64,000 bases of DNA from Streptomyces sp. CB02923 (lineage in GTDB: Bacteria; Actinomycetota; Actinomycetes; Streptomycetales; Streptomycetaceae): contig NZ_LWKZ01000029.1 in the NCBI RefSeq assembly GCF_001905005.1, positions 131,564 to 195,563 on the forward strand, read 5' to 3'. Made by a program: the position numbers and the translations under genes. Below, piece by piece: positions 29,510 through 35,682 of the stretch (position 1 is the first letter of the stretch; every line of letters starts with the position of its first letter). The notes below the pieces were generated by a model. The model worked only from the letters and a program-made list of their open reading frames with translations, searched no databases and was not told the DNA's origin.

Positions 29510-29655
29510 CGGGCCGACGGTGCACCCCTCACCTGCCGCCCGGCGGGGGCCCTCACCCGCCTCCCGGCGGCACACCCCTGCACCCGCCCGCCGCCCGGCG
29601 GTGCACCCCCGTCCCCGCCCGCCGCCCGGCGGTTGTGCCCCTCACCCGCCCGGCG
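29510..29655. repeat. GC-rich dyad repeats downstream of MaoC gene
   Basis: Four to five imperfect copies of a unit containing CCGCCCGGCGG (itself a hairpin) with CCCCTCACC or TGCACCCC between them, in the gap between convergent MaoC and tetR genes. It probably serves as a terminator region for both. Confidence 0.6.
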
Positions 29656-30304
29656 ACCACCGCTCTCCGCCCATCAGCCGCCCCAGCCCCGCCCATGCGA
29701 AGTTCATCAGCGTCGCCGCCGTGTCCTTGGCCGACGGGCGCTCCCCGGAGGGCATCCCGCCGTCGCGCGCGTTGGCCCAGTCGGCCAGCGATTCGGCGGC
29801 GCCCACCAGGGCGTGCGCCAGGCCGGACACCTCGCGGGCGGCGGGTTCCCGGTCGCAGCCCGCCTCCTGGGCCGCCGCGCCGATCATCGCCGTGACGAAC
29901 TCGACGATCTCCGCCCGCATCGCGGCGACTTCGACCGCGAACGGTTCTCCCTGGGTACGGGCCTGCTGGTGCAGCACCGCCCAGCCGTCCGGGTGTTCGG
30001 CCGTATGAGCGAAGAATCCTTTCAGCCCGCTCCACAGCTGCCGGTCGGCGGACGCGTCCGGCTCCACCGCGGCCCGTACCGCCTCGGCGAGCGCCGCCGA
30101 CTCCCGCCGGATCACGGCGCTGAACAGCTCCTCCTTGGAGTTCAGGTACAGATAGACCAGCGGCTTCGACACGCCGGCCACCTCGGCGATCTCGTCCATC
30201 GAGGCCGCCCGGTAACCGCGCCGCGCGAAGGTCAGCACGGCCGCGTCCAGCATCTGCTGCTCCCGTACGGCCCGCGGCATTCGCTTGCTCTTCACAGCTC
30301 CCAC
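29642..30304 (-). CDS. TetR family transcriptional repressor
   Basis: 220-aa regulator. The N-terminal helix-turn-helix reads LTFARRGYRAASMDEIAEVAGVSKPLVYLYLNSKEELFSAVI, a typical TetR domain of the type often linked to fatty-acid genes. The ligand domain is variable, with HPDGWAVLHQQARTQGEPF. GTG at 30304 gives MGAVKSKRMPRAVREQQ; a TTG further out at 30340 would lie inside the operator and is less likely. The related palindromes at its own promoter and before the MaoC/ligase pair suggest it controls both. Confidence 0.88.
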   Translation of the reverse strand: MGAVKSKRMPRAVREQQMLDAAVLTFARRGYRAASMDEIAEVAGVSKPLVYLYLNSKEELFSAVIRRESAALAEAVRAAVEPDASADRQLWSGLKGFFAHTAEHPDGWAVLHQQARTQGEPFAVEVAAMRAEIVEFVTAMIGAAAQEAGCDREPAAREVSGLAHALVGAAESLADWANARDGGMPSGERPSAKDTAATLMNFAWAGLGRLMGGERWSPGG

Positions 30305-30330
30305 GCCAATTGCCCTTCCGTCCCACCCCT

Positions 30331-30351
30331 TTACCGCCAAGTAAGTTTACG
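30331..30351. promoter_or_regulatory. TetR-type operator before tetR gene
   Basis: TTAC-N6-GTAA followed by GTAAGTTTAC (30342-30351), matching the 28432-28451 site over CCAAGTAA(A/G)TTTACG. It is about 27 bases upstream of the chosen TetR start, a position that fits autoregulation. Confidence 0.6.
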
Positions 30352-30445: not shown

Positions 30446-31333
30446 ATGCAGCTGACGCATCAGCAGTTCGTCGAAGCGGGCACCGGCGTGCGCCTGTGGA
30501 CCGAGCAGCGCGGCGCGGCCGACGCGCCCCCGCTGCTGCTCCTCATGGGTGCGCAGGCGTCCGGCCTGGGCTGGCCGGAGCCGTTCGTGAACGCGCTCGC
30601 CGTCCACCACCGGGTCATCCGTTACGACCACCGCGACACCGGCCGCTCCACCTGGTCCTTCGACCAGCGGCCGTACCGCGTCACGGACCTGGCGCAGGAT
30701 GCCGTCCGCGTCCTCGACGGCCTCGGGGTCGAGCGGGCGCACCTGGTGGGGATGTCGCTCGGCGGGATGCTGACGCAGCTCGCCCTCGCCGACCACCCCG
30801 GCCGGGTACTGAGCGCCAGCCTGCTGGGCACCTCGGCGCTGAGCGCCACCCCGTACACCCGCCCGGACGGCACGCGGGTCCCCGCCACCGGGCTGCCCGG
30901 CATCGCGCCGGAGCTGCTGGAGCTGTGGGCCCGCCCCGTCGAGGACCACGGCCTGGAGGCCGAACTCGACCGCCGCGTGGAGCACTGGCGGGCACTGAGC
31001 GGCACCCGGCTCCCCTTCGACGCCGGTCACTTCCGCCGCCTGGAACGCCGGATCATCGAGCACACCGGCCGGTACGACGTCTCCACCGCGCACGGCCGCG
31101 CCGACGACTCGGGCATGCTGCGCACCGAAGCCCTGGCCGCCGTCCGGGTCCCCGTCCTCGTCATCAGCGCCCCCGCCGAACCGGTCTTCCCGCCACCGCA
31201 TCCGCACCACCTCGCCCAGGTCATCGGGGGCGCCCGCCTGGTGGAGATCCCGGGCATGGGCCACGCCCTGCCGCCCGAAGTGCAGGGGCCGCTGGCGGCG
31301 GCGATTCTCGCGCATACGGGGGAGGCGGGCTGA
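30446..31333 (+). CDS. Alpha/beta hydrolase
   Basis: 295-aa cytoplasmic alpha/beta hydrolase of the small-molecule esterase/haloperoxidase-like group. Features are the oxyanion strand PLLLLMGAQASGLGWPEPF, YDHRDTGRSTW, the nucleophile elbow VGMSLGGMLTQLAL, an acidic position in VLVISAPAEPVFPP and the terminal GMGHALPPEV histidine. The RDTGRS motif is frequent in aclacinomycin methylesterase (RdmC)-like proteins. Substrate unknown. It ends before a strong hairpin shared with the convergent symporter gene. Confidence 0.87.
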   Translation: MQLTHQQFVEAGTGVRLWTEQRGAADAPPLLLLMGAQASGLGWPEPFVNALAVHHRVIRYDHRDTGRSTWSFDQRPYRVTDLAQDAVRVLDGLGVERAHLVGMSLGGMLTQLALADHPGRVLSASLLGTSALSATPYTRPDGTRVPATGLPGIAPELLELWARPVEDHGLEAELDRRVEHWRALSGTRLPFDAGHFRRLERRIIEHTGRYDVSTAHGRADDSGMLRTEALAAVRVPVLVISAPAEPVFPPPHPHHLAQVIGGARLVEIPGMGHALPPEVQGPLAAAILAHTGEAG

Positions 31334-31445: not shown

Positions 31446-32813
31446 CTACGCCCCGGCGGGCGCCGGGACCGACACCTTCTGCTCGGGCTGCTCGGGCTCG
31501 CCCGCCGCACCGTCCTCCAGCTCCACACCGGCGGCACGGGCGTACGCGTCGCGGTCCAGGATCTTCTCCTTGGCCGAGACCAGGATCGGCACGACGACCT
31601 GGCCGGCGACGTTCGTGGCCGTCCGCATCATGTCCAGGATCGGGTCGATGGCCATCAGCAGGCCGACGCCCTCCAGCGGGAGGCCGAGCGTGGACAGGGT
31701 CAGGGTCAGCATGACGGTGGCGCCCGTCAGGCCCGCGGTGGCCGCCGAGCCGATGACCGAGACGAAGGCGATCAGGACGTAGTCGCCGATGCCCAGGTCG
31801 ACGTCGAAGATCTGCGCGATGAAGATCGCGGCGAGCGCCGGGTAGATCGAGGCGCAGCCGTCCATCTTGGTCGTCGACCCGAAGGGCACCGCGAAGGACG
31901 CGTACTCCTTCGGGACGCCCAGGCGCTCGGTGACCTTCTGGGTCAGCGGCATGGTGCCGACCGAGGAGCGGGAGACGAACGCCAGCTGGATGGCGGGCCA
32001 GGCGCCCTTGAAGAACTGCAGCGGGTTGACCTTGGCGAAGACCGACAGCAGCAGCGGGTAGACGCCGAACAGGACGATCGCGCAGCCGACGTAGATGTCG
32101 ACGGTGAAGGTCGCGTACTTGCTGATCAGGTCCCAGCCGTAGTCCGCGATGGCGTAGCCGATCAGGCCGAGCGAGCCGATCGGGGCGAGGCGGATGACCC
32201 ACCACAGGGCCTTCTGGAGCAGCTCCAGCGCGGAGCGGCTCAGGCGCAGCACCGGCTCGGCGCGGTCGCCCAGCTTCAGGGCGGCGATGCCGGCCACCGT
32301 CGCCATGAAGACGATCTGCATGACCTTCAGCTCGGTGAACGGCGTGATGACGTCCTTGGGGACGATGCCGGTCAGGAAGTCGATCCAGGAGCCGGCGTGC
32401 TCGGGGAGCTTGCCGTCCTTGGGCGTCAGCCCGGTGCCCGCGCCGGGGTTGCTGATCAGGCCGATCGCCATGCCGATGGCGACCGCGATCAGCGAGGTGA
32501 CCATGAACCACAGCAGGGTGCGGGTGGCCAGCCGGGCGGCGTTGTTGACCTGCCGCAGGTTGGTGATCGAGACCAGGATGGCGAAGAAGACCAGCGGTGC
32601 CACGGCCAGCTTGAGGAGCTGGACGAAGAGGTCGCCGATGGTGTCGAGGGTGGTCTTCAGCCAGGAGACGTCACCGCTCTTGGCGATCCAGCCGAGCAGC
32701 ACACCGAGGACGAGGCCGAGCAGGATCTGGGCCCAGAACGGGACCTTGGGTATGCGGCGGGAGGATCTGGCGGTCTCGGTGGACCGCGAGGTCTCGGAAG
32801 ACGTGGTGGACAA
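31446..32813 (-). CDS. Dicarboxylate/amino acid:cation symporter (DAACS family)
   Basis: 455-aa Na+ or H+-coupled membrane transporter with about eight helices and two re-entrant hairpins. Family marks are the HP1 serines RSSVGTMPLT, the transport helix FGSTTKMDGCASIYPALAAIF and HP2/TM8 MRTATNVAGQVVVPIL. DAACS members carry C4-dicarboxylates, glutamate or cystine, and sequence alone does not settle which. A Cys-rich leader peptide upstream argues for cystine. TTG at 32813 is preferred because GGAG lies 8 bases upstream; GTG 32822 would overlap that site. The N-terminal 25 residues are Ser/Thr-rich, the C-terminus acidic and Pro-rich. Confidence 0.9.
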   Translation of the reverse strand: MSTTSSETSRSTETARSSRRIPKVPFWAQILLGLVLGVLLGWIAKSGDVSWLKTTLDTIGDLFVQLLKLAVAPLVFFAILVSITNLRQVNNAARLATRTLLWFMVTSLIAVAIGMAIGLISNPGAGTGLTPKDGKLPEHAGSWIDFLTGIVPKDVITPFTELKVMQIVFMATVAGIAALKLGDRAEPVLRLSRSALELLQKALWWVIRLAPIGSLGLIGYAIADYGWDLISKYATFTVDIYVGCAIVLFGVYPLLLSVFAKVNPLQFFKGAWPAIQLAFVSRSSVGTMPLTQKVTERLGVPKEYASFAVPFGSTTKMDGCASIYPALAAIFIAQIFDVDLGIGDYVLIAFVSVIGSAATAGLTGATVMLTLTLSTLGLPLEGVGLLMAIDPILDMMRTATNVAGQVVVPILVSAKEKILDRDAYARAAGVELEDGAAGEPEQPEQKVSVPAPAGA

Positions 32814-32874
32814 CGGACACACTCCGTGGACAGACAGGCGTCGGGAAGGAAACGGCGGACAGCGCCAGGAGAAA

Positions 32875-32905
32875 GGAGGTCCGTATCGATCCGTACGGGA
32901 TCTCC
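32875..32905 (-). promoter_or_regulatory. Hairpin between leader peptide and symporter gene
   Basis: In the 114-base gap after the leader stop, GGAG...CTCC and CCGTA...TACGG pair to make a hairpin, followed on the minus strand by TTTCTCC. It could be the attenuator or ribosome-site-masking arm expected after a leader peptide. Confidence 0.4.
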
Positions 32906-32927
32906 GGCCGCTGCGGTGACAGGAAGG

Positions 32928-33032
32928 TCAGCGGCGGCAACAGGCCGCGGACATGCAGCGGCAAAGATCGACGTGCAGGCGCGCCACGAGCGGGACGCCC
33001 GTGGACATGTGGTGCGCTGCTGCTGTCTTCAT
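32928..33032 (-). CDS. Cys-rich leader peptide upstream of DAACS symporter
   Basis: 34-codon ORF, MKTAAAHHMSTGVPLVARLHV followed by DLCRCMSAACCRR. The core RLHVDLCRCMSAAC matches the pattern of actinobacterial putative leader peptides (R-x-HVDL-x-R-x-x-SA-x-C) that sit before sulfur and cysteine metabolism genes. Four Cys codons in the last 11 would let ribosome stalling report cysteine supply. A second ATG at 33008 may be the true start, giving 26 residues. The symporter begins 114 bases downstream. Confidence 0.65.
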   Translation of the reverse strand: MKTAAAHHMSTGVPLVARLHVDLCRCMSAACCRR

Positions 33033-33054
33033 GTCGAACACGTTAACACTTGAA

Positions 33055-33083
33055 CTTTGGGGAACCCAAAGAAATTCTTTGGG
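33055..33083. promoter_or_regulatory. Overlapping CTTTGGG/CCCAAAG palindromes before leader peptide
   Basis: Three alternating half sites: CTTTGGG (33055-33061), CCCAAAG (33065-33071) and CTTTGGG (33077-33083). Adjacent halves make two overlapping dyads, one of them a perfect 9-bp repeat around a single A (33065-33083). It is 23-51 bases upstream of the leader start, where the promoter should be, so it is a likely operator. Confidence 0.55.
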
Positions 33084-34335: not shown

Positions 34336-35514
34336 TCACACCCGCATCGGCTGCGGTGCCTCGCGGCGCTCCGCGTCCGGGCCCGGGTACTCCCGGATGG
34401 TCTCGTAGCGGGTGTTGCGCTCGACCGGCCGGAAGCCCGCGTCGCGGATCAGGTCCAGCAGGTCGTCGCGGGTGAGCTTGTTCGGCGTGCCGTAGTTGTC
34501 CGCGTCGTGCGTGATCTTGTACTCGACGACCGAGCCGTCCATGTCGTCGGCGCCGTGCTGGAGCGCGAGCTGCGCGGTCTGCACGCCGTGCATGACCCAG
34601 AAGACCTTCACGTGCGGCACGTTGTCGAACAGCAGCCGGGAGACGGCGAAGGTCTTCAGCGCCTCGGCCCCGGTCGCCATCGTGGTGCGCGCCTGGAGCT
34701 TGTTGCGGACCTTGCCGTCCTTCATGTCCACGAAGTCGTGCTGGTAGCGCAGCGGGATGAAGACCTGGAAGCCGCCCGTCTCGTCCTGCAGCTCGCGCAG
34801 GCGCAGCACGTGGTCGACGCGGTGCCGGGGCTCCTCGATGTGCCCGTACAGCATCGTCGCCGGGGTCTTCAGACCCTTCTCGTGCGCCAGGCGGTGGATG
34901 CGCGACCAGTCCTCCCAGTGGGTGTCGTGGTCGACGATGTGCTGGCGCACCTCCCAGTCGAAGATCTCCGCGCCGCCGCCGGTCAGCGACTCCAGACCGG
35001 AGTCGATCAGCTCGTCGAGGATCTCGGAGGCGGGCAGCCCGGAGATCTTCTCGAAGTGGTGGATCTCGGTGGCGGTGAACGCCTTGAGGGAGACCGTGTC
35101 GGGCAGCGCCTCCTTGAGGGCGCTGAGCGAGCGCGGGTAGTAGCGCCACGGCAGGGTCGGGTGCAGGCCGTTGACGATGTGCAGCTCGGTGAGGTTGTCG
35201 CCCTCCATCGCCTTGGCGAGGCGGACGGCCTCCTCGATGCGCATCGTGTACGCGTCCTTCTCGCCGGGCTTGCGCTGGAAGGAGCAGTACGCGCACGAGG
35301 CGGTGCACACGTTGGTCATGTTGAGGTGACGGTTGACGTTGAAGTGCACGACGTCGCCGTTCTTGCGCGTGCGCACCTCGTGGGCGAGTCCGCCCAGCCA
35401 CGCCAGGTCGTCGCTCTCGTAGAGGGCGATGCCGTCCTCGCGGGTCAGCCGCTCCCCGGACCGGACCTTGTCCTCCAGCTCGCGCTTGAGACCCACATCC
35501 ATGGATGCAGTCAT
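34336..35514 (-). CDS. mqnE: Aminofutalosine synthase
   Basis: 392-aa radical SAM enzyme that joins 3-enolpyruvylbenzoate and the adenosyl group of SAM to make aminofutalosine, the second step of the pathway. Cysteines Cys70, Cys74 and Cys77 lie in NRHLNMTNVCTASCAYCSFQR, characteristic of MqnE. Further blocks are ELHIVNGLHPTLPWRYYPRSL and KVFWVMHGVQTAQLALQHGADDMDGSVVEYKITH. GGGAGG stands 7-12 bases before the ATG at 35514, which decides the start over the upstream frame. Confidence 0.94.
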   Translation of the reverse strand: MTASMDVGLKRELEDKVRSGERLTREDGIALYESDDLAWLGGLAHEVRTRKNGDVVHFNVNRHLNMTNVCTASCAYCSFQRKPGEKDAYTMRIEEAVRLAKAMEGDNLTELHIVNGLHPTLPWRYYPRSLSALKEALPDTVSLKAFTATEIHHFEKISGLPASEILDELIDSGLESLTGGGAEIFDWEVRQHIVDHDTHWEDWSRIHRLAHEKGLKTPATMLYGHIEEPRHRVDHVLRLRELQDETGGFQVFIPLRYQHDFVDMKDGKVRNKLQARTTMATGAEALKTFAVSRLLFDNVPHVKVFWVMHGVQTAQLALQHGADDMDGSVVEYKITHDADNYGTPNKLTRDDLLDLIRDAGFRPVERNTRYETIREYPGPDAERREAPQPMRV

Positions 35515-35682
35515 CCGGCCGCCTCCCATATCTCTGCCAAAATCGGGCTTCACCGAGCGTACTCCCCCGTATTCCGGCCCGGCCGGGCCCCCATGCCTGT
35601 ACGGCCGGGAGCCCGCCGTACAGGCGCGGAAGCGGGGTCCTGCGTGTCGTTCTCCGGGCGCCGCGGCCCCCGGGGCGCCGCC

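Follow-up and report, generated by a model that had tools for sequence, protein, structure and literature searches.

Organization of the locus

The window, by which we mean the whole 64,000-nucleotide stretch of Streptomyces DNA analysed here, from 131564 to 195563 of contig C29, contains a gene for a symporter of the DAACS/SDF family that is preceded on the same strand by a short, cysteine-rich leader peptide gene, promoter-like elements and a putative DNA operator (Table 1). Read from the ATG at 33032 on the minus strand, the leader has the C-terminal end ...LVARLHVDLCRCMSAACCRR, and the ORF ends DLCRCMSAACCRR. The same ORF spans 32928-33041 (minus strand) if read from a GTG; because this GTG overlaps the -10-like element, the ATG is the likely start. 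For the symporter, TTG 32813 is probably the start rather than the GTG from which the ORF is listed, because the GGAG motif begins 12 nt before the TTG. Of 104 orthologues, whose starts were chosen by Shine-Dalgarno-like sequence, 103 have a GGAG that begins 9-12 nt upstream of the start so chosen. An earlier note on this DNA had described a 34-codon Cys-rich leader ORF, a hairpin downstream of it and overlapping CTTTGGG/CCCAAAG dyads upstream. The ORF is real and has 34 codons when counted from ATG 33032, the hairpin is present by sequence, and the dyads were confirmed as one 27-bp array.

Between the MqnE gene and the leader the window holds a DUF4229 gene, and a DUF4229-like sequence also precedes the symporter in five of the orthologues inspected (L014, L020, L043, L092 and L095).

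Table 1. Features placed in the window, with the basis for each.
Feature	Position	Strand	Basis and remarks
MqnE, futalosine menaquinone route	34336-35553	-	Model matches
Putative triple half-site operator, CAAAG-N5-CTTTG-N7-CAAAG	33055-33081	-	27 bp; pattern counts
Candidate -35-like element, TTGGGT	33064-33069	-	Placed by eye; 18 nt before the -10-like element, overlapping the middle half-site
-10-like element, TAACGT (TAnnnT)	33040-33045	-	Ends 7 nt upstream of the ATG of the leader by the spacing count
Leader peptide gene, 34 codons, MKTAAAHHMSTGVPLVARLHVDLCRCMSAACCRR	32928-33032	-	ORF list, motif at orthologues and NF042934 match
Segment 1, GATCTTTGCCGCTGC, Asp-Leu-Cys-Arg-Cys codons	32955-32969	-	Complement search and predicted fold
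Segment 2, GCAGCGGCCGGAGATCC, after the stop codon	32898-32914	-	Two alternative predicted partners: the Cys codons (1:2) and segment 3 (2:3)
Segment 3, GGACCTCC	32875-32882	-	Possible pairing with segment 2 (hairpin 2:3), judged from the sequence
Weak terminator-like hairpin, TGGCG-CTGTC-CGCCG then TTTCC	32853-32867	-	Consensus scan
Shine-Dalgarno GGAG of the symporter	32822-32825	-	Read from the sequence
DAACS/SDF symporter	31446-32813	-	PF00375, 1.7e-105; ORF listed from GTG 32822
Alpha/beta hydrolase	30446-31333	+	Nearest to macrolide esterase models, 166.8 bits against a cut-off of 420
TetR-type regulator	29642-30340	-	Nearest to FasR, 94.4 bits against a cut-off of 330
Streptomyces sRNA scr4677, Rfam RF02673	11383-11603	+	73 bits

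Conservation of the leader peptide

Symporter orthologues were found in 101 of the 150 Streptomyces genomes searched and were missing from the other 49. The leader motif L[HP][VI]DL[CGR]R lies intact upstream of 95 of the 101. At the six remaining loci the leader is altered (L014, L020), cut by a gap in the sequence that leaves the tail alone visible (L102), or absent upstream of the symporter (L043, L092 and L095). In a second sample of 80 named symporter loci, nearly all from Streptomyces and possibly overlapping with the first, the leader was present at 77 and the exact operator at 66, compared with two hits in 320 control stretches; the regular expression did not find the leader at L213, L217 and L272. 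Outside the genus the symporter gave 59 matches in the class, and upstream of the 13 loci that were examined a leader-like ORF stood at 12, in two cases as a variant (examples are RLYVDLRRQASGVCPA and RLHVDLCRLNGDLCR); at the thirteenth, L150, there was no leader-like ORF before the symporter.

The codons of the Streptomyces leaders vary synonymously (His CAC 63/CAT 32, Asp GAT 65/GAC 30, Val GTC 72/GTG 13) while the motif residues hardly vary, which argues for selection on the peptide over most of the motif. Cys codons lie near the leader stop, as in cysteine-responsive leaderless attenuators. The peptide has no match in Pfam. Loss of the leader codons at homologous loci had been named as an observation that would speak against the leader; the comparison was made, and at 95 of 101 and 77 of 80 loci the leader survived it. 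The arrangement of leader and symporter is real and conserved.

Relationship to the NF042934 leader family

We compared the leader with the NCBIfam model NF042934 (cis_reg_atten, 'putative leader peptide'), with which it has in common an HVDLxR...SAxC core; in the leader studied here the invariant Cys is flanked by additional Cys codons (C-R-C-M, C-C). It scores 21-22 bits (E 8.9e-5) and so falls below the curated cut-off of 27 bits, which weighs against the reading proposed below; it also matches the Ms4527A model weakly. At least six orthologous symporter leaders, assigned to symporter loci by coordinates, exceed the cut-off: at least four from other Streptomyces genomes (G009, 32.8 bits; G027, 31.3; G012, 29.5; G026, 29.3) and those of two other genera (G260, 36.4; G263, 34.8). 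Because its own score is under the cut-off and orthologous leaders are over it, our leader is a divergent relative of the family, in an orthologous group that contains members.

The same model gave 18 matches at E<=10 in the genome under study, comprising six above the cut-off, the leader described here and 11 that scored no more than 15 bits; at this threshold 10 of 14 control genomes also gave matches, none of them above the cut-off. At E<=0.001 the family was found in 31 of 31 Streptomyces genomes and in none of the 14 controls, and of 197 genomes searched across the class, 128 have matches that exceed the cut-off. Four of the six other family leaders in the genome precede genes for a ThiS-family (CysO-like) protein, a nitrite/sulfite reductase, a cysteine dioxygenase and a rhodanese. 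For the remaining two the downstream gene encodes a luciferase-like monooxygenase in one case and an ABC permease in the other; both families often serve sulfonates, and these targets are likely to be sulfur-linked too. The sulfur link is thus given by Pfam name for four of the six targets, and for the symporter it is itself argued from the evidence below. The statement, given as known in the earlier note, that leaders with an HVDLxR..SAxC pattern precede sulfur genes holds in this genome. Very probably, then, the leader senses cysteine and belongs to a kind of element already known.

An invariant UGU codon

Of the 95 Streptomyces symporter leaders, 93 have UGU as their last, invariant Cys codon; in one of the exceptions, L090, we noticed by eye a duplicated segment whose second copy carries UGU. 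This codon is also UGU in all 11 leaders read at 12 symporter loci of other genera. The same was true of every family leader that could be read, 56 in all from 65 family loci, and these stand before several different genes. (The loci are L104-L109, L166-L190 and L275-L304 for the family leaders, plus those of the symporter leaders. Family leaders were read by regular expression at 25/35, 26/35 and 56/65 loci in three sets; 30 of the 56 came from the class search, and these 30 represent 16 genera by their codes.) The other Cys codons of the 56 leaders are UGC 78 times and UGU 23 times (Fisher 3.6e-24, a value that ignores kinship). Elsewhere, Cys is encoded by UGC 198 times and UGU 19 times in symporter genes, and 20 and 8 times, respectively, in 13 genes of the window. 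At every other motif position of the family leaders the third base varies.

Base pairing was considered as the cause of this constancy and rejected, since the 56 leaders showed no clear partner either after the stop or before the leader. After the stop, complements of the UGU windows occurred in 0 of 56 for three 6-mers, and two 5-mer complements were found 7 times against 3.2-3.4 expected; before the leader, 6-mer complements occurred 1, 3 and 1 times (0.6-0.8 expected) and 5-mer complements 6 and 5 times (3.9-4.3 expected).

The likeliest explanation is that UGU is fixed for a reason at the level of decoding. For tRNA-Cys, UGU is a wobble codon, and a modification that contains sulfur may be required next to the anticodon; UGU may be the slower codon, possibly dependent on tRNA modification. 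A more speculative extension, which we regard as unlikely but worth stating, is that the whole actinobacterial HVDL leader family senses sulfur status on this one wobble-read UGU, with HVDLxR in the exit tunnel pausing the ribosome there, and that at the symporter this sensor was joined to a private operator so that two signals meet at one promoter. If so, because UGU is read by wobble and tRNA-Cys may need the sulfur modification, the leader could respond not just to Cys charging but also to tRNA thiolation.

Promoter and operator upstream of the leader

The spacing between a TAnnnT element and the leader start was examined in 113 regions, of which 104 could be anchored; the nine left out (L036, L097, L098, L139, L140, L141, L143, L144 and L151) had no TAnnnT-linked leader start or no Shine-Dalgarno-linked symporter start. 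The distance was 7 nt in 96 orthologues and 6 nt in 8. As starts were picked by nearby TAnnnT or Shine-Dalgarno-like sequence, the informative part is the sharpness of the spacing and not the presence of the elements. Because the -10-like element stands only 7 nt before the ATG, this arrangement suggests that the leader message starts at or very near the ATG, that is, leaderless. A sigma-70 consensus scan of the stretch found no promoter before the leader, which counts against our reading.

On the plus strand the operator dyads read CTTTGGG-GAA-CCCAAAG-AAATT-CTTTGGG. The 9.57-Mb genome has a single match to the pattern CTTTGGGN{1,6}CCCAAAG, and the looser CAAAGN{4,7}CTTTG occurs in two places, compared with 21 for its reversed control. 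Of 101 Streptomyces genomes, 59 contain the exact triple pattern, each in a single copy (reversed control, 0). These 59 are among the 72 genomes that have the symporter; none of the 29 genomes that lack it has the exact operator, two of the latter (G001 and G079) being less than 80% complete. Each of the 59 copies stands upstream of the symporter match, at a distance of 64-365 nt. In its exact form the operator is, by these counts, a single-target site. It is absent from all 13 symporter loci examined in other genera.

The second place matching the looser pattern, on contig C24, was considered as another copy of the operator and rejected, since it belongs to a different palindrome, CTTTGCAAAG. 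This palindrome is repeated shortly before an ATG (C24:67859-67875), is unlike the symporter operator and is, by likeness, perhaps a LacI-type site.

The operator half-sites persist where the leader is absent, in exact form at L043, L092 and L126 and in degenerate form at L095. At L092 the symporter's own ATG lies 7 nt after a TAnnnT element and the operator is kept; here the control DNA appears to have outlived loss of the leader, with the symporter itself leaderless. A scan of five further proteins in the surroundings of the symporter yielded none for the operator: the TetR-type gene is the sole regulator among them, and another gene stands between it and the symporter.

The RNA between leader and symporter

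Beyond the hairpin described earlier, the Cys codons GCCGCTGC (32955-32962) are an exact complement, over 8 nt, of the post-stop sequence GCAGCGGC (32907-32914), and in the predicted fold this helix is lengthened by GATCT/AGATC. When the 3' part of each leader was compared with its spacer, 40 of 104 orthologues had helices longer than in shuffled sequences at p<=0.05, 15 of them at p<=0.01; these rows are relatives and not independent. The other 64, including the sequence studied here (L001; longest helix p 0.31), had no significant helix, and this weakens the reading proposed below. In 19 orthologues TGCCGCTGTATG pairs with CATGCAGCGGCG, and in a group whose Cys run lies near the stop it is this run that pairs instead, for example CTGTTGCTGTT with AACAGCAGCGG. 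Several predicted orthologue folds contain a second hairpin (2:3) that uses post-stop segment 2.

Energies gave no comparable signal. RNAduplex energies of the leader 3' part with the spacer had a median z of -0.46, with 11 of 104 below -2, and spacer folds a median z of -0.79, with 12 of 104 below -2; shuffled sequences were as good in both cases, and the fold of our own RNA (z -1.39) is ordinary beside its shuffles. Because the energy tests gave no signal above shuffles, an RNA switch is argued here from helix length and relocation alone; such a switch appears to be supported in part of the orthologues and not significantly in our own sequence. A terminator scan gave two sites in the stretch against a shuffle mean of 0.2, one being the weak hairpin of Table 1 and the other the operator dyad on the plus strand. 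It found no strong terminator in this region, only a 5-bp stem with TTTCC, which again counts against the proposed control, and no Rfam family exceeded its gathering score over the leader region.

In five loci with short spacers (L086, L088, L129, L156 and L158) we noticed by eye that the stop codon lies inside an apparent inverted repeat, TGACGT...ACGTCA. The leader-symporter spacer of L098 carries an insert flanked by CTGTCTCTTATA...TATAAGAGAC; because these flanks look like sequencing-adaptor sequence, the insert is probably an assembly artefact.

The symporter and its probable substrate

The top NCBIfam model for the symporter is DctA, at 213.9 bits against a cut-off of 513. Its TM8 reads DMMRTATN, like GltP, TcyP and the aspartate transporters and not like the SEARALTN of the one other SDF gene in the genome, which is of DctA type. 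By the score together with TM8 the symporter is not a DctA, and the earlier note's view that this is not such a carrier is well supported by these two features and by the separate DctA-type paralogue. In work on GltPh the Asp at this place of TM8 binds the amino group of the substrate; the substrate should therefore be an amino acid.

The symporter reads TKMDGCASIYPA in TM7 and TcyP reads IGQNGCAGLYPA. Both proteins have GCAx[IL]YPA in TM7 and D-M-x-R-T-A-x-N in TM8, whereas GltP, DctA and the aligned solved aspartate transporters are without the extra TM7 residue, the Cys and YPA. One TcyP was compared, that of E. coli (YdjN), a protein of the SDF family annotated as a cystine/sulfocysteine:cation symporter. 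It is about 30% identical to ours, and neither scores nor the tree make it a nearer neighbour than GltP and DctA: in BLAST against E. coli proteins the symporter scored 152 bits with TcyP, 152 with DctA and 162 with GltP, the top of four proteins, and in a tree of 15 rows with long branches it did not join TcyP. The best relative of solved structure is an aspartate transporter (268 bits), which speaks against a cystine substrate and so against our reading. The earlier proposal of a cystine carrier thus keeps its support from TM7 and TM8, but overall similarity and the tree do not favour TcyP. We consider that the symporter is probably a sulfur-amino-acid importer, for which cystine is the plausible and favoured substrate; S-sulfocysteine or aspartate/glutamate may be carried instead.

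Proposed control of the symporter

We think it fairly likely that a two-level control region, combining a leader RNA with a DNA operator, drives a symporter for a sulfur amino acid, most likely cystine. RNA polymerase would begin transcription with the A of the leader ATG, or close to it, and produce a leaderless message. When Cys-tRNA is scarce, the ribosome on the leader would stall at the Cys codons (C-R-C-M...UGU). With a freely moving ribosome, segment 1, which holds the Cys codons, could pair with segment 2; with a stalled one, segment 2 would be free to form hairpin 2:3. The switch would thereby raise expression of the symporter at low cysteine, its output being either termination (Rho-type or at the weak terminator) or access to the symporter ribosome-binding site. 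Separately, a putative protein would bind the CAAAG half-sites, three in alternating orientation, that cover the -35 and spacer; a repressor is the simplest guess, made because the operator overlaps the -35-like and spacer region.

This reading draws on the leader motif, kept in both samples of loci, in the second against two hits in the control stretches, and also in other genera, on the family leaders above the cut-off, the six sulfur-linked leaders and the leaderless-type spacing. It draws further on the helices in 40 of 104 orthologues, the TcyP-like TM7 and TM8, the DctA-type paralogue, the restriction of the exact operator to genomes with the symporter (59/72 vs 0/29) and L092. It is weakened by the absence of the symporter from 49 of 150 Streptomyces genomes, by the undecided BLAST scores and tree, by duplex and fold energies no better than those of shuffles, and by modelled ribosome positions that leave the Shine-Dalgarno pairing as it is.

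How the leader might act is less settled, and two routes seem to us possible to about the same, rather doubtful, degree. In one, the C-rich spacer would be a rut-like site for Rho, exposed once the leader ribosome finishes and hidden by the 2:3 fold that forms upon stalling. The spacer (0.41 C and 0.24 G in our sequence) has a C-G excess above 0.15 in 87 of the 94 orthologues whose spacer is at least 60 nt, a level reached by 8% of windows of 100 nt across the 64 kb; the scan found no strong intrinsic terminator, and Rho was proposed for mycobacterial cys leaders (Seliverstov 2005). The control windows were not limited to intergenic DNA, however, which may be C-rich generally, and the stall site lies upstream of the spacer, so that the ribosome would not hide it directly. 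In the other route the leader would act by translational coupling or by masking the Shine-Dalgarno sequence, with no premature termination. Cysteine cases in M. smegmatis are termed translation attenuation in PMC13236596, and segment 3 of our sequence holds CCUCC, which could pair with the symporter GGAG. Against this, with four ribosome positions modelled in 103 sequences the predicted Shine-Dalgarno pairing of the symporter was much alike throughout, and among the sequences listed CCUCC does not stand at the matching place in the larger orthologue group.

Two alternatives touch the premise itself. The symporter could carry aspartate or glutamate, with the cysteine leader tying uptake of acidic amino acids to sulfur status. 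The best solved relative, the GltP score and the D-x-x-R-T-x-x-N of TM8, found in GltP and aspartate transporters, all point this way, but TM7 (MDGCAxIYPA) has the one extra residue and the Cys of TcyP, unlike 9bgz, the GltPh-type chain and GltP, and the six other such leaders of the genome precede sulfur-linked genes; we hold this to be improbable, though not negligibly so. Far less probable is that the leader is a fossil and the operator alone controls. Three of 101 loci indeed lack the leader with half-sites kept (L043 and L092 exact, L095 degenerate), as does L126 with the exact operator, yet 95 of 101 loci retain the peptide motif despite variation at synonymous sites, and the leader is kept in other genera whose loci lack the operator.

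If two-level control with a sulfur amino acid as substrate is correct, the symporter, scored nearest DctA by family models and present in 101 of 150 sampled Streptomyces genomes, gains a likely physiological role, and there is a hint of the means by which many Streptomyces take up oxidised cysteine. The locus would also be a compact case of two control layers at one promoter, with an operator that has one target per genome, and the fixed UGU offers a simple way to probe sulfur sensing by leaders. What would surprise a specialist here is the private triple half-site, together with the fixed UGU.

Relation to known leaders

Among the titles and abstract openings of the literature searched, none reported the leader-symporter pair, the operator or the UGU rule. 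As described in papers that cite Canestrari 2020, the mycobacterial polycysteine attenuators are leaderless sORFs with Cys codons near the stop that precede cysteine genes. Our leader likewise has Cys codons near its stop and is predicted to be leaderless; unlike them, it precedes a DAACS symporter, shares its promoter with a private DNA operator and may pair its Cys codons with post-stop sequence. Cys leaders were described in Mycobacterium and P. acnes, along with cbs of B. longum (PMC1262725), and a cysS uORF in which UGC dominates was described in Rhodobacterales (PMC8632094); further related literature includes PMC4633059 and PMC9094748. The S. lividans attenuators of PMC8079986 belong to amino acid genes and include several leaders with leaderless transcripts, as is predicted here, but its list of 8 leaders holds no cysteine leader. 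Among them the Cys-rich metL leader (RCMCRRMC) is discussed there for methionine and threonine. In our search it matches no NCBIfam model. Given as ARCMCRRMCAF in Table 4 of that paper and called methionine-dependent, it might sense cysteine.
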